In this document: in pieces, positions 46,084 to 52,815 of the stretch
Numbering within the stretch: the first letter of the stretch is position 1
Layout of the letters: each line of letters begins with the position of its first letter
Origin: Thermostichus vulcanus str. 'Rupite'
GTDB lineage: Bacteria; Cyanobacteriota; Cyanobacteriia; Thermostichales; Thermostichaceae
Length of the DNA: 52,939 bases
Direction: 5' to 3'
Assembly: GCF_022848905.1 (NCBI RefSeq)
Contig: NZ_JAFIRA010000024.1
Location: forward strand, 1-52,939
Program-made: the position numbers and the translations under genes
Notes under the pieces: model-generated
Databases searched by the model: none
What the model saw: only the letters and a program-made list of their open reading frames with translations
What the model was told of the DNA's origin: nothing

Positions 46084-47904
46084 TCAACGACCGTGCTGGC
46101 GCGGAGCGCCATAGGCTGGCCCATCTTCCAGCAGCTCTTCCAAGGTTTCGATCCAGCTTTCCATCTCCTCCAGTGCCTGCAAAAATAGGTCGGGGTCCGC
46201 GATATCCACCTGCAGCATCAGGGCCGTTTCTTCCAAGGTCAGGGATCCTGGTGGACTGGCCAACCAACTCAAGTAACGAGGTAAGAACTCGCGCGGAGAA
46301 AGATGATAGCGTCGGTACCACGCCAAAGCCATCAAGCTGGAGAGGCTGGCTTGATAGGTGCTAAAGGGGCGTTGAAACAACTCCCGGATCCCGACCCAGT
46401 CAAACTGATGTTCTGGCAACAACTCCACGGCATCCCCACACAGCTCCTGGTAGAGCTTCAGCCACTCCTCATTCACCCAGTCTGAATAGGTTTCGCCATT
46501 CTCCAATTCCGGGATCCCCTGTCGATAGAGGAGCAACTCCAGTTGGGTGATCAGGCTCTGACAAAACACCGCCTGTAACTGAGCTTCCAAGCTATGGATC
46601 AATAGCGCACGAGCCAAAGCGGATTTTACCCCATTCCCCCGCTGCAGCTCCTCACGGGATCCCGCCCACCCACCCCGGCCCGAGTGCAGCAGATAATCCA
46701 GCACCAGCAACTGTAAAAACTCACGGTGAACTTGACTCAAAAGGGCTGGCGTAGCCTCAGCCTGAATATCCTCCAGTTCCGGCCAAACCACGGGATCCGC
46801 AGCCCGTAACTCCTGACTCACCTTGGCAATGCTTTCTAACAAGGGCTGGATCAGAACTTGGGGGGCTACAGATTCTGGTTCTGCCGGTATCGCAGGCTCA
46901 TCCGCAGCAGCTTCTCCAGAAAGCCAAGGCTTGGATTGAGTGGCACACTCGGGGCAAAACTCTTGCAAAGCGGCCAACACCAGAGCAGAGGCTTCCGTTG
47001 CCCTCAAGGTTAGGTCGGCCATATCTCCAGAGACTTCCCAAGGGGCTTGTAGATCGCAAATGCGGATGGAACGACCCATCTCCCGGCTTTTCAGGCGATA
47101 GTAGCGCTGGAACAGATCCACCCGATCGCGGATCCCTTCTATCAAGTGGTCGAAGACCGTCTGGGCAAGGCAGTGACGAGCCAGATACAGCTCAACGGGA
47201 GAATCATAACTTCGCCATTGGGCTTCCCAGAGGTGATCTCGAACCAGGGTGCTGAGAATAAAACCACAGAGCTCAGCATGGGCTTCCAAATGCTGGTGCA
47301 AGCGTTGGTAGGCCGCCAATCGGATCTCGGCACTGGGATGGGTTTGCAGGCGCTGCAATTCCGCAAGGGTATAGCTATGCTCCGCATCGGCCTTGAGGCT
47401 ATGGCGTTCCGGCACATGGAGGATGGTTTGCCACAACTGCCGCCAAGCAAAACGTCCCGTCAGGTGTTGTTGGTGCAGTAGGCGCTCCAAAGGCTCAGGG
47501 TGTTGGTGGCCCCGTTCCCAGAGCAGCCGGGCTAGAAACACGCGAAACGGCAACCCTGCTGGCTCGGAGCGATACGCGGCCAATCGGTCGGTGGGCAAAG
47601 CCTGCAATTCTAACGGGAAAAACAGCAGTGGATTTTGCAGAGCGATGCGCTGTTCCAGCCACTCCAGGACGCCTTGTGCATCCTGCCACACCCCAGAATC
47701 ACCAGGGATCCCTGGAAAGGCTGTCCACAAAGACGAAAGTTCCTCTAGGGCTGCTACCAACTCTGCCCCACTGAGCTGAGCCACCTGTCCCCAGTAGCGT
47801 TGGCGAAACGCTTGGATTTGCGCTTCTAGCGGGGTCGGTTCGGGATCCGGATCCGCCAGTCCCCCAGAGAGGGAAGAGGTCGGTTCAGAAGCAGGGGGTA
47901 CCAC
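46084..47904 (-). CDS. M3-peptidase (oligoendopeptidase F)-like protein lacking HExxH
   Basis: 606 residues from GTG 47904, GGAGG nine bases upstream within the last codons of the histidine kinase gene. Residues ~40-290 and ~381-585 follow the PepF/M3B helical pattern: ELQALP, a TPSAEIRLAAYQRLHQHLE-type region, DLFQRYYRLKSREMG; and later LVLDYLLHSG, GDAVELLPEHQFDWVGIREL and FQRPFSTYQASL. The zinc-binding HExxH with its flanks is absent; residues ~291-380 instead form an acidic/Pro stretch. The acidic residues of the ASTFNE-type motif read Gln here. It is probably a catalytically dead scaffold or binding protein. Its place between kinase and methylase is tight. Confidence 0.65.
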   Translation of the reverse strand: MVPPASEPTSSLSGGLADPDPEPTPLEAQIQAFRQRYWGQVAQLSGAELVAALEELSSLWTAFPGIPGDSGVWQDAQGVLEWLEQRIALQNPLLFFPLELQALPTDRLAAYRSEPAGLPFRVFLARLLWERGHQHPEPLERLLHQQHLTGRFAWRQLWQTILHVPERHSLKADAEHSYTLAELQRLQTHPSAEIRLAAYQRLHQHLEAHAELCGFILSTLVRDHLWEAQWRSYDSPVELYLARHCLAQTVFDHLIEGIRDRVDLFQRYYRLKSREMGRSIRICDLQAPWEVSGDMADLTLRATEASALVLAALQEFCPECATQSKPWLSGEAAADEPAIPAEPESVAPQVLIQPLLESIAKVSQELRAADPVVWPELEDIQAEATPALLSQVHREFLQLLVLDYLLHSGRGGWAGSREELQRGNGVKSALARALLIHSLEAQLQAVFCQSLITQLELLLYRQGIPELENGETYSDWVNEEWLKLYQELCGDAVELLPEHQFDWVGIRELFQRPFSTYQASLSSLMALAWYRRYHLSPREFLPRYLSWLASPPGSLTLEETALMLQVDIADPDLFLQALEEMESWIETLEELLEDGPAYGAPRQHGR

Positions 47905-47909
47905 CGGAA

Positions 47910-50900
47910 TCAGCCTCCACCGTTGGGGGAGTGCCCGATTGGGTATGTAGGGCGCCGTGATGTCTCTCTGCCCACTAAAGCTCGGATGGTACTGAGGAAC
48001 TCTTGATTGGAGGTACGGGCTTTCACCAGCGTAGCCTGGATCCCGTCCTCCAGGTTGTCGGGGCCAATATCTTGAGCAGAAAAGACCACGACAGGAGTCG
48101 TGCTGACCGAGCGCAACAACGGCAACAGTTCCAACCCTGAGCCATCCGGCAAGTACAAATCCAAAATCACCAATTGAAACTGTCGGGTCTGCAAAAGCTG
48201 GCGAGCTTCCTCTAGGGAATGGGCATGAGCCAATTCAGCAGTATTCTGCAAAATTTGCGCGACCACTTGCAAGATATCGGGATCATCCTCCACATGCAAA
48301 ATTTGGGGACGTGGTCGTTCATGTTGGCCTGCTGCCTGCTGTACCGCCGCCACCAGCTGCTCTTGGTCAATTGGTTTGTTTAACCAGGCGATCAGCTTGG
48401 CGGGGTACTCTGCCATCACCGAAAGAGCCTCAGACGTGGCTCTGTGGGCAGCCTTTCGGGCCGGCGGCAACTTGTTACAGGGCGAATCCGCCAGCGGGGC
48501 GGAGTCCTTGTTGACCTCGGAGGAGCATCTGAGCCACTCCGCCTGCCGCCGTTGCTCTGCTGTCGCCGACACCACCACAATCGGTAGGTTGCCCAACCCC
48601 TGCATTTGCCGCAGATCTTCCACCAGAGACAGGCCATCTTGATCCGGCAGGGAAAGATCCAAGGTCATGGCGGCATAGTGTCGCTCTTGCAAGCGAGATT
48701 TGGCCGCGGCAGCAGTAGGCGCAATATCGGTTTGGAACCCCCCCTGCTGCAAAATCAACTCCAACAACATGGCAATATCCGGGTCATCTTCGCAAATCAA
48801 AATGGCGGCCCCATCAGCAGGTTCTTCGGTTACAGGGGCAAGAAACGGTTGCCACTGGGGCAGGGTGAAGTAGAAAGTGGTGCCCTGCTGACCGGGTTCT
48901 CCTGTCTCTTGAATTGGATTGGACTGGAAACCAATCGTGCCACCAAACCGCTCCACGATTGCTTTGCTGATGCTCAAGCCCAAGCCCGTGCCCCCTTTCT
49001 GTCGCGTATCAGAAGAATCGGCCTGGGCAAACTTTTGGAAGATCCGAGAGCGAAACTCCTCCGGGATCCCTGGCCCCCGATCCCGCACATAAACCCGGAT
49101 CCCTTCCTGAACGTGTTCGGCCCAAACCCGCACGGTTTGACCGGGCGGAGAAAACTTGGCCGCATTGGAGAGCAAATTGTTCATCACCTGCATCAACCGA
49201 TTTGGATCCACATTCACCTGTATCGCCGTCAGCGGGATCCCGGTGGTAGAGAGCACTTCCGGTTCTAGCCGCAAGTCCACTGCAAATTGGGCGGCATAGG
49301 CACGGTTGGCCTCAATCGCCTGCTGCAACAGAGCCATCAGATCGACGGGGTGAATATCGAAATGCATTTTGCCGGACTCGATCTTCTCGATATCGAGAAT
49401 GTCGTTGATCAGCATCACCAGCCGTTCGCTGTTTTTGTAAGCAATGTCCACCAAAGACTGAACTTGGGGGGGGAGCTGCCCACTGACTCCACCGCTGATC
49501 AACCCCAAGGCACCGCGAATCGAGGTGAGGGGGGTGCGCAATTCATGGCTGACGGTCGAGACAAATTCGTTTTTCAACCGTTCGACTTTCTTCCGTTCGG
49601 TGATGTCGCGGTGGCTCCACACACACCCGGAAATCTGGGTAGGGTTGGCAGCCGTTTCCCCCAACTGGCGCGGCTTGCTATAACACTCAAACACCCGCCC
49701 ATCTTTAAGCTCCACCAGGTCATATCCCTCCTGTTGCAGGCGCAGATGGGAGCGGATACGGCGCAAAAACCGCAACGGCTGACGGGCGCGACGGGCCATA
49801 CGGCGCAGGCGTTGACTGGGGGAGAGTCGCATCAGTTCGGCATAAGTCAGGCCCCAGAGATCTAAAAAGCGCTGATTGTAGCTGAGCACCTGTCCTTTCA
49901 AATCGAAGGCGAGGATACCATCGGCGGTGGAATCCAGAGTGGCTTGCAGCAGCGAAAGGGATCGTTGCAATTCCTGTTCGGCCTTTTTGCGTTCGGTGAT
50001 GTCTTCAAATGTGCCTTCATAATAGAGAACTTGCCCGGCTTCATCTCGAACCACACGGGCATTTTCTCGCACGGTAATGCGGCTGCCATCGCGGCGAAAA
50101 TATTCGATTTCCAAACCGCGAATCTCCCCAGCACTTTCCAATTGGCGCTTGAAGTCGGCTCGGGAAAAGTCGGCTGGATAGTGACTTTCTTCCTCTAGGT
50201 TCCAGGCCATCATCTCCTCGTAGGAGCTGCAGTTCATCATGCGAATGATGGCAGGGTTGGCCAGGATGGTTTGGCCCTCCGGGGTGGTACGGTAGACGCC
50301 GATGGGGGTATTTTCAAACAACGACCGATAGCGAATTTCACTTTCTCGCAGGGCTTGTTCGACTTTCTTGCGCTCGGTGATGTCTTCGACAAAGCCTTCA
50401 TAGTAAAGAATCTGCCCCTGGGGATCCCGGACGGCGCGGGCATTCTCGGAGATCCAGATGATGCTGCCATCTTTGCGGTAAACCTGGGATTCGAAGCGAC
50501 CGATGCTGCCGACCGTTTCTAGCTGCTGCACAAAGGTTTGCCGCCGCTGGGGATCCACATACAAGCGATGTTCAATGTCGGTGAGCTCCCGGATTAATTC
50601 TTCCGGGCTGTCGTAGCCGTAGATGCGGGCCAGAGCTGGGTTGGCACTGAGGTAGTTGCCGGCAGGGGTGGTTTGAAAGATCCCTTCCAGGGCGTTTTCG
50701 TAGATGCTGCGATAGTTTTCTTCCGCTTGCCGCAGGGCTTCTTCTGCCTGTTTGCGCTGCATGATGGATCCCAGCTGAGCGGCGGCAGCCTTGACCAAAT
50801 TGACCAGGCGTTGCTCTTGGGGTCGGGCCCGCACCAAATAAAACACCAACACCGCCACCACTGCTTCGTCCGCCAGAATCGGTACGCCAAAACAGGCCCT

Positions 50901-52598
50901 CAGCCCCGCCTGCTGTGCCAGTTGCCCACGTCGAAATTGTGTACCAGAGAGCTGGGTGACATCTTCATGCCAAACCGAGCGACGATCCAACCACATTTGG
51001 CCGGGTAGTCCTTCTCCCAAGCGGAAACGATAGGCGGCACTGCCCCGATGAAACAACAGCAAGGTTTCGACTCGGTTGTACCAAGCGGCCCCCCGCACCA
51101 AGTACTCTCCCTGCGGGATCCAAGCCTCCCCCAAATCCCAACCCGTCAGTACGCACACCTGGCGCAACATCACCTGTAGAGCAGAGGGAAAATCAACCGC
51201 CTCGCTGATCGCTTGGGTCAGGCTTTGCAGCAGTTGCAGCTCTTGTTCCGCCCGTTTGCGCTCATGAATGTCTTGCACCATTGAGAAGGTGAACTGAGGC
51301 TTGCCGGTTGCATCTCGCACCAAAGACACCGTGATATCCACCCAGAGGGGATCCCCGCCTTTGCGGACATAGCGTTTTTCAATGCGAAAGGAATCCCGTT
51401 TGCCCTCCAACAACTCTTGATTGAGGGTGATATCTTTTTCGAGATCGTCCAGATGGGTGAAGTCCATGAAGGTGAGTTGATTCAGCTCCTCCGAGGTATA
51501 GCCCAACATGGAGACATACGCTTCGTTATGAGCAATCAGACGACCTTGAGTATCGGCAACTCCAATACCAATGGCCGCCTGCCGAAACATGACCCGAAAC
51601 AGGTTCTGACTTTCTTGCAAAGCAGTGGTGGTTTCCTGTCGTTCTGCCTCCCATTGCCGCTGACTGTGGGAAAGTCGAGACTCTGCCTGCTGCCGTTCTA
51701 GCGTCAAGGTTAAAGAGGTGGCGGCGGCTCGCAACAGATGAATCTCAGCCTCTGACCACCGATAGGGCTGTTCACAATGATCAAAGCCAATCAGGCCAAA
51801 AAATTGGTCTTCTACAAACAAGGGCAAAAGCAAGATGGAGAGGATCCCTTGCGGTTCGAGGTGGTGGCGTTCTGCTTCTCCCAGTTCACTGACCAATCCA
51901 GAGATCGGCTCGCCAGCGGCCAGCCTGGGTAGCCAATGGGGTGCAAAAGCATCGTAGGGCAGGTTTTGCAGCAGGGGATTGTCGATTTGGGGTGGGATCC
52001 CCGCTTGGCACCATTCGGCTTTTTGGCTAACCCGCAACTTATCGGGATTCTCCGGATCCCGGTGATTTTCAAAGACGTAAACACGGCTGGCTCCACAGGC
52101 TGTGGCCAAGGGTTCGAGCACCATGTTGTAGATCTGCTGGCGGCTGGTGCTTTTGAGATGGAGTAGTCGCTGTTGCACCTCCACTAGGGTGGCCAGATAC
52201 CGCTGCTGAGTGGAGGAGGCTGGTTCCGGCGGGATCCCGATGTCACCAGGAGAAGGGGAGGTGGAAATGGGGCGGGCAGAGCCGATCCAGACTTCTGCTT
52301 GGGGATCCCAAGATCCCTTCCAGTCGAGCGGTTGATAGGATCCCTGTCGGTGCCGAAAGCGAAGGGTTAGGGAGAGCAGCGTTTCTCCCTGGCGGTTTTT
52401 CTCTAGCCAAGATTGCCAGTTCAGTTGGTCGTCGGGATGCAGAAAATGAAGACAGGGCCGGCCCCTCAATTCAGACAGCTCATATCCCAAGCAAGACTGC
52501 CATGCAGCGCCCAGTTGTCCCAGACATCCATCGGATCCCAGCACGTAAAACAGCTCCGGTTCAATTGGGGATCCCGATGCAGAGGGGGACAAATCCAT
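47910..52598 (-). CDS. Giant hybrid sensor histidine kinase (PAS/GAF x7, HisKA, HATPase, two REC)
   Basis: 1562 residues from ATG 52598; a TTG six codons earlier is also possible. Order: PAS (~20-125), GAF (~145-310), PAS (~340-455), GAF (~460-625), PAS (~635-755), PAS (~765-880), PAS (~890-1005), HisKA with SHELRTPLTSIRGAL, HATPase (GTGLGLSISKAIVERFGG), then REC1 (DDPDIAM...LDLSLPDQDG) and REC2 (EDDPDILQ...LDLYLPDGSG). No membrane segment, so cytoplasmic. REC1 carries an in-frame insertion of 27 residues (48435-48515) near its end. The first GAF lacks the phytochrome Cys context. The M3-like and Dam genes follow in the same transcription unit. Confidence 0.9.
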   Translation of the reverse strand: MDLSPSASGSPIEPELFYVLGSDGCLGQLGAAWQSCLGYELSELRGRPCLHFLHPDDQLNWQSWLEKNRQGETLLSLTLRFRHRQGSYQPLDWKGSWDPQAEVWIGSARPISTSPSPGDIGIPPEPASSTQQRYLATLVEVQQRLLHLKSTSRQQIYNMVLEPLATACGASRVYVFENHRDPENPDKLRVSQKAEWCQAGIPPQIDNPLLQNLPYDAFAPHWLPRLAAGEPISGLVSELGEAERHHLEPQGILSILLLPLFVEDQFFGLIGFDHCEQPYRWSEAEIHLLRAAATSLTLTLERQQAESRLSHSQRQWEAERQETTTALQESQNLFRVMFRQAAIGIGVADTQGRLIAHNEAYVSMLGYTSEELNQLTFMDFTHLDDLEKDITLNQELLEGKRDSFRIEKRYVRKGGDPLWVDITVSLVRDATGKPQFTFSMVQDIHERKRAEQELQLLQSLTQAISEAVDFPSALQVMLRQVCVLTGWDLGEAWIPQGEYLVRGAAWYNRVETLLLFHRGSAAYRFRLGEGLPGQMWLDRRSVWHEDVTQLSGTQFRRGQLAQQAGLRACFGVPILADEAVVAVLVFYLVRARPQEQRLVNLVKAAAAQLGSIMQRKQAEEALRQAEENYRSIYENALEGIFQTTPAGNYLSANPALARIYGYDSPEELIRELTDIEHRLYVDPQRRQTFVQQLETVGSIGRFESQVYRKDGSIIWISENARAVRDPQGQILYYEGFVEDITERKKVEQALRESEIRYRSLFENTPIGVYRTTPEGQTILANPAIIRMMNCSSYEEMMAWNLEEESHYPADFSRADFKRQLESAGEIRGLEIEYFRRDGSRITVRENARVVRDEAGQVLYYEGTFEDITERKKAEQELQRSLSLLQATLDSTADGILAFDLKGQVLSYNQRFLDLWGLTYAELMRLSPSQRLRRMARRARQPLRFLRRIRSHLRLQQEGYDLVELKDGRVFECYSKPRQLGETAANPTQISGCVWSHRDITERKKVERLKNEFVSTVSHELRTPLTSIRGALGLISGGVSGQLPPQVQSLVDIAYKNSERLVMLINDILDIEKIESGKMHFDIHPVDLMALLQQAIEANRAYAAQFAVDLRLEPEVLSTTGIPLTAIQVNVDPNRLMQVMNNLLSNAAKFSPPGQTVRVWAEHVQEGIRVYVRDRGPGIPEEFRSRIFQKFAQADSSDTRQKGGTGLGLSISKAIVERFGGTIGFQSNPIQETGEPGQQGTTFYFTLPQWQPFLAPVTEEPADGAAILICEDDPDIAMLLELILQQGGFQTDIAPTAAAAKSRLQERHYAAMTLDLSLPDQDGLSLVEDLRQMQGLGNLPIVVVSATAEQRRQAEWLRCSSEVNKDSAPLADSPCNKLPPARKAAHRATSEALSVMAEYPAKLIAWLNKPIDQEQLVAAVQQAAGQHERPRPQILHVEDDPDILQVVAQILQNTAELAHAHSLEEARQLLQTRQFQLVILDLYLPDGSGLELLPLLRSVSTTPVVVFSAQDIGPDNLEDGIQATLVKARTSNQEFLSTIRALVGRETSRRPTYPIGHSPNGGG
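48435..48515 (-). other. 81-bp in-frame insertion in the REC1 domain
   Basis: Residues VNKDSAPLADSPCNKLPPAR and the next seven (KAAHRAT) interrupt REC1 just before its closing LNKPID segment. Removing them joins RCSSE to ALSVMAE, a normal REC end. The DNA contains a TCCGCC/GGCGGA stem and two AACAAG copies. It is probably a small inserted repeat element that keeps the frame. Confidence 0.5.
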
Positions 52599-52815
52599 GG
52601 GGGTCAGCAACCGCAAGACTTCTTATGATTGTGACACTCTCCTCCAAGGAATGCAGCTTGGAGGGCTTGGGCCAAGCGGTTCCCGCAAGCAAGAGGGAAT
52701 CCAGAAAGCTACTGTTCCTGTTCCCATGGTGCAGGTCGGTTGATGTCTCGCAGCAAAGCCAAGGGCTTCTACAGCCTGGATGATCTGATCCAGCAAACGG
52801 CTGGAGTGGAGTGCC

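Follow-up and report, generated by a model that had tools for sequence, protein, structure and literature searches.

Within the 52,939-nucleotide stretch of Thermostichus vulcanus str. 'Rupite' analysed here (the window), one gene raises the question whether a relative of oligoendopeptidase F that carries no zinc-binding motif is still an enzyme, a relic in decay or a protein selected for another task. The gene (46084..47904, minus strand) reads uninterrupted from a GTG start codon, with a GGAGG ahead of it, to its stop codon and encodes 606 amino acids. A motif search of the protein agreed with the first-pass annotation that HExxH occurs nowhere in it, and the motif is likewise absent from 5/5 orthologues of the genus.

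In profile searches, the protein matched NCBIfam TIGR02290 (E 1.2e-42) and TIGR00181 pepF (E 3.2e-17), each in two stretches and with both scores under the curated whole-protein cut-offs; the intact orthologues from two sister genera (genomes G006 and G007) also stay under the TIGR02290 cut-off. A whole-genome search showed that the two stretches flank the missing site on either side. With phmmer, the protein matched PepF 2QR4 (E 3.5e-11). Among the Pfam profiles, Peptidase_M3_N gave a marginal match slightly under its cut-off (E 5e-5) that, together with TIGR02290, supports the assignment, whereas the catalytic-domain profile Peptidase_M3 (PF01432) matched neither this protein nor any other in the whole genome.

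An AlphaFold2 model computed from a 20-sequence alignment reached a pLDDT of 80.4 and a pTM of 0.83; this alignment contains active relatives, on which the model leans, and prediction from the five inactive sequences alone gave an unusable model (pLDDT 35.5). Low confidence was confined to the tail, residues 67-73, 332-348 and 409-423, and the C-terminus. By structure comparison, the model shows the M3 helical fold: its top match is oligoendopeptidase F of Enterococcus faecium (PDB 2QR4; Z 39.4 over 497 residues at 18% identity), followed by an entry at 27.8, with other M3B enzymes at Z 20-28 and ACE-type M2 enzymes at ~18-20. Unlike 2QR4, the window protein has lost the active-site sequence, that is, HExxH, the zinc-ligand Glu and a strand segment. 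Lack of kinship with M3 was one way in which the initial reading could have failed; the relationship stands in sequence as well as in predicted fold.

The nature of the loss becomes apparent in an alignment with the active orthologues, whose segment reads ..W-DAxxRPGKRGGAFCxYxxGxHSYLLLSYTxxxxSLFTLAHEMGHGLH..NSxPPMVLAEIASTFNELLLLDYLL; the corresponding segment of the 606-residue protein is PWLSGEAAADEPAIPAEPESVAPQVLIQPLLESIAKVSQELRAADPVVWPELEDIQAEATPALLSQVHREFLQLLVLDYLL. HEMGH is replaced by Q364-E-L-R-A368, with Q364 at the first zinc His and A368, directly past the divergent helix, at the second. Across the clade, these two positions hold Gln or Arg and Ala or Pro, while the position of the catalytic Glu is occupied by Glu (E365) in G000 and G003 but by Arg in the three remaining orthologues, residue placement within this divergent stretch being less certain than elsewhere in the alignment. 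The Glu of VLAE, which we take to be the third zinc ligand (presumably at the M3 His-to-Glu spacing of 28-29), has become Q391, conserved as Gln in four orthologues and changed to Arg in G001; at the position of the FNE Glu, all five proteins carry Gln (Q398). The Gln residues that had been noted in the ASTFNE-type motif are thus correctly placed; they bound QVHREFLQ (residues 391-398; 46711..46734, minus strand), which stands in place of EIASTFNE. The C-terminal M3 region (residues 431-595; 46120..46614, minus strand) retains its conservation, except that the invariant His and two Tyr of the active enzymes are replaced at positions 508, 515 and 519 by Glu, Ser and Ala/Val (E508, S515 and A519 in the window protein).

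The site had further been described as replaced by an acidic/Pro stretch. This holds for the strand segment RPGKRGGAFC..SYLLLSYT, at whose place we find an acidic/Pro linker (residues ~330-348; 46861..46917, minus strand) predicted with low confidence (pLDDT ~40), but not for the HExxH helix, which appears to be retained in divergent form (~348-366; residues 349-366 at 46807..46860, minus strand). The strand segment before it is gone, and usual substrate docking is therefore impossible. Because the zinc ligands and catalytic residues are gone as well, we infer from the sequence that the protein would no longer cleave peptides.

A hydrolase in which a different metal site or chemistry has taken over from the zinc site would be compatible with the retention of both lobes and with several polar residues that have become invariant in the clade (H393, Q398, E508, R222 and R531). 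However, inspection of the five-sequence alignment reveals no compact group of conserved ligands such as HxxxH or HxH, and the Arg at the catalytic Glu position in three of five proteins and the absent strand segment also speak against such an enzyme, which we consider very improbable. Likewise, no alternative zinc site is apparent by inspection among the conserved residues of these five sequences, so that the hidden site which would have contradicted the pseudoenzyme reading did not emerge.

The comparison with the sister genera defines the change. The TIGR02290 (M3_fam_3) enzymes of G006 and G007 are orthologous by tree position, similar in length and share the helical fold at 37-39% identity, and they retain an intact HELGH or HEMGH; the window protein differs from them in lacking HExxH, the zinc-ligand Glu and the strand segment and in its replaced C-terminal His and Tyr residues. 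HExxH is also intact in 36 further cyanobacterial genomes with loci read. By contrast, full-length orthologues without the motif, 59-88% identical, occur in five of the six genomes of the genus (G000, G001, G003, G004 and G005). A survey of 291 genomes sampled from the class found weak or broken matches among the close orthologues in this genus only, a few matches cut by contig ends or split excepted; reading at residue level covered matches with a locus outside a distant group at 20-28% identity. In an unrooted tree, the five inactive proteins form a single clade on a long stem (support 100/100), and its point of attachment is the one expected from vertical inheritance in the family. The observed lack of the site is neither decay nor a sequencing error.

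PF01432 matched nothing in the six genomes G000-G005, while 11 of 14 control genomes gave a match. As an M3 catalytic domain is thus found in none of these genomes, we rejected a role as partner of an active M3 paralogue.

An open frame may also persist by chance in a gene that lost its activity and then its function. Such slow decay could be read from G002 (95% complete), the sole genome among the six of the genus without a homologue, where the ComM-side flank holds different genes and no recognisable remnant of the pseudopeptidase gene, a picture that fits a loss and a gene never gained equally well; the function is therefore dispensable or absent there. It could also be read from several short repeat-like in-frame insertions in the G004 orthologue, and from a dN/dS of 0.342 for the pair G004-G005 (bootstrap interval 0.27-0.43), which exceeds that of the neighbouring genes in the pair G000-G003 (0.10-0.11). 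For the pseudopeptidase itself, dN/dS was 0.168 in G000-G003 (0.12-0.23), a constraint somewhat weaker than that on these flanking genes, and 0.235 in G001-G005 (0.19-0.30). All three intervals exclude 1, indicating purifying selection. Moreover, all 28 of the 28 indel events counted in the three pairs comprise whole codons, and the five frames are open. In a simple, substitution-only simulation of neutral evolution, none of 300 copies kept an open frame even at 0.2 substitutions per site. The core blocks are near-identical although synonymous sites are near saturation, with a dS of 1.5-1.9 between the two subclades. Slow decay is thus already strongly disfavoured, and we give it very little probability.

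Residues 87-318 and 431-595 are the most strongly constrained, and the linker and N-terminal tail are only weakly so; the terminal and linker parts vary freely among the orthologues. The first of these regions is a helical scaffold part (46951..47646, minus strand), to which TIGR02290 matches best and in which 34 of 59 positions invariant in the active enzymes are retained in all five orthologues. Overall, the five retain 62 of the positions that are invariant in 15 active enzymes, whereas at 28 other such positions the five share a single different residue; 49 additional positions, each occupied by five or more residue types in the active enzymes, are invariant here. Part of this invariance reflects shared ancestry, because the five proteins are related, but the two subclades are far enough apart for their synonymous sites to approach saturation. 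The single origin, the five intact orthologues, the dN/dS values below 1, the in-frame indels and the newly invariant residues together favour, as the first-pass annotation had proposed, a functional pseudoenzyme over random decay, with function deduced from selection. We therefore regard the protein, with high confidence, as a selected pseudoenzyme, and its job is probably non-catalytic, because the site was lost yet the rest of the protein was preserved by evolution.

We also considered whether the gene neighbourhood reveals this job. The stop codon of a hybrid histidine kinase gene lies 5 bases ahead of the pseudopeptidase start, and a Dam-type methylase gene follows 27 bases past its end, all on the same strand, as would be expected if the protein were an adaptor for either product within one operon. 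Yet the kinase has a full-length orthologue only in G000 and G003 and a receiver-domain remnant at the same place in G004, the methylase adjoins the gene in four carriers (G000, G003, G004 and G005), G001 being the exception, and the pseudopeptidase persists without both. Neither being a constant neighbour, kinase and methylase were rejected as obligate partners, and the adaptor reading is improbable, if marginally less so than decay or an altered hydrolase. In several genomes of the genus, a ComM-like gene is found on the opposite side. Kinase, methylase and ComM-like neighbours are too inconstant, and no role can therefore be assigned from context. PADLOC gave no match for the protein that would point to a role in a defence system. 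The kinase gene itself (window 47910-52616) is large and encodes a GAF domain, several PAS domains, HisKA/HATPase and two receiver domains.

Our preferred reading, which we consider likely, is neofunctionalisation: a pseudopeptidase whose helical M3 body is retained for binding or as a scaffold. An ancestral M3B oligoendopeptidase was passed down vertically in this cyanobacterial family and, as alignment and tree show, lost its zinc site and active-site strand segment once, ahead of the divergence of the five known carriers. The leftover helical body has since been held by purifying selection with an invariant residue set of its own; the scaffold (87-318) and the C-terminal lobe (431-595) may bind a partner, either a peptide or a protein, and the acidic/Pro linker would then bridge the former active site. 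Binding or scaffolding is the most likely job by analogy with other pseudopeptidases, although we hold it less firmly than the pseudoenzyme status as such.

Many known pseudoproteases are kept beside an active paralogue. Among metallopeptidases, inactive homologues retained for interaction or scaffolding are described in a review (PMC11266112), in which a term search returned neither family M3 nor oligoendopeptidase; the inactive form of this genus differs in being alone in its genome, with no active family copy beside it. We lean towards the view that in this genus the sole M3-family peptidase became a pseudopeptidase, selected for a new function in peptide or protein binding and lacking an active paralogue. 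Searches of the open literature, the coverage of which is incomplete, returned nothing on an inactive oligoendopeptidase F or an M3 non-peptidase homologue. Although pseudopeptidases in general are well documented, such an M3B lineage is undescribed in the literature searched. It is a clear natural example of an enzyme turned non-enzyme in which the active version was not left behind. With active-type orthologues in the sister genera (~38% identity), inactive ones within the genus (59-88%) and a limited set of switched residues, it becomes possible to ask which part of an M3 peptidase can serve for binding after catalysis has been lost. Homology-based annotation of the gene as a 'peptidase' calls for caution.

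The G004 locus showed two further peculiarities. In a stretch covering the orthologue and its upstream side (L034:11367-12846), the variable loops of the gene contain in-frame, near-identical short repeats of two types, TATGCCTACGGCACCCTGGCGGGAACCGC and TATCGCTACGCGACGCTTC, and such repeats also occur just upstream of it; small dispersed repeats thus seem to insert in this genome and leave the frame unbroken. In addition, a 24-nt unit within the Dam open reading frame of G004 is repeated in tandem, in three identical copies, where the contig ends (L034:13734-13807), and this array is possibly the cause of the contig ending there.
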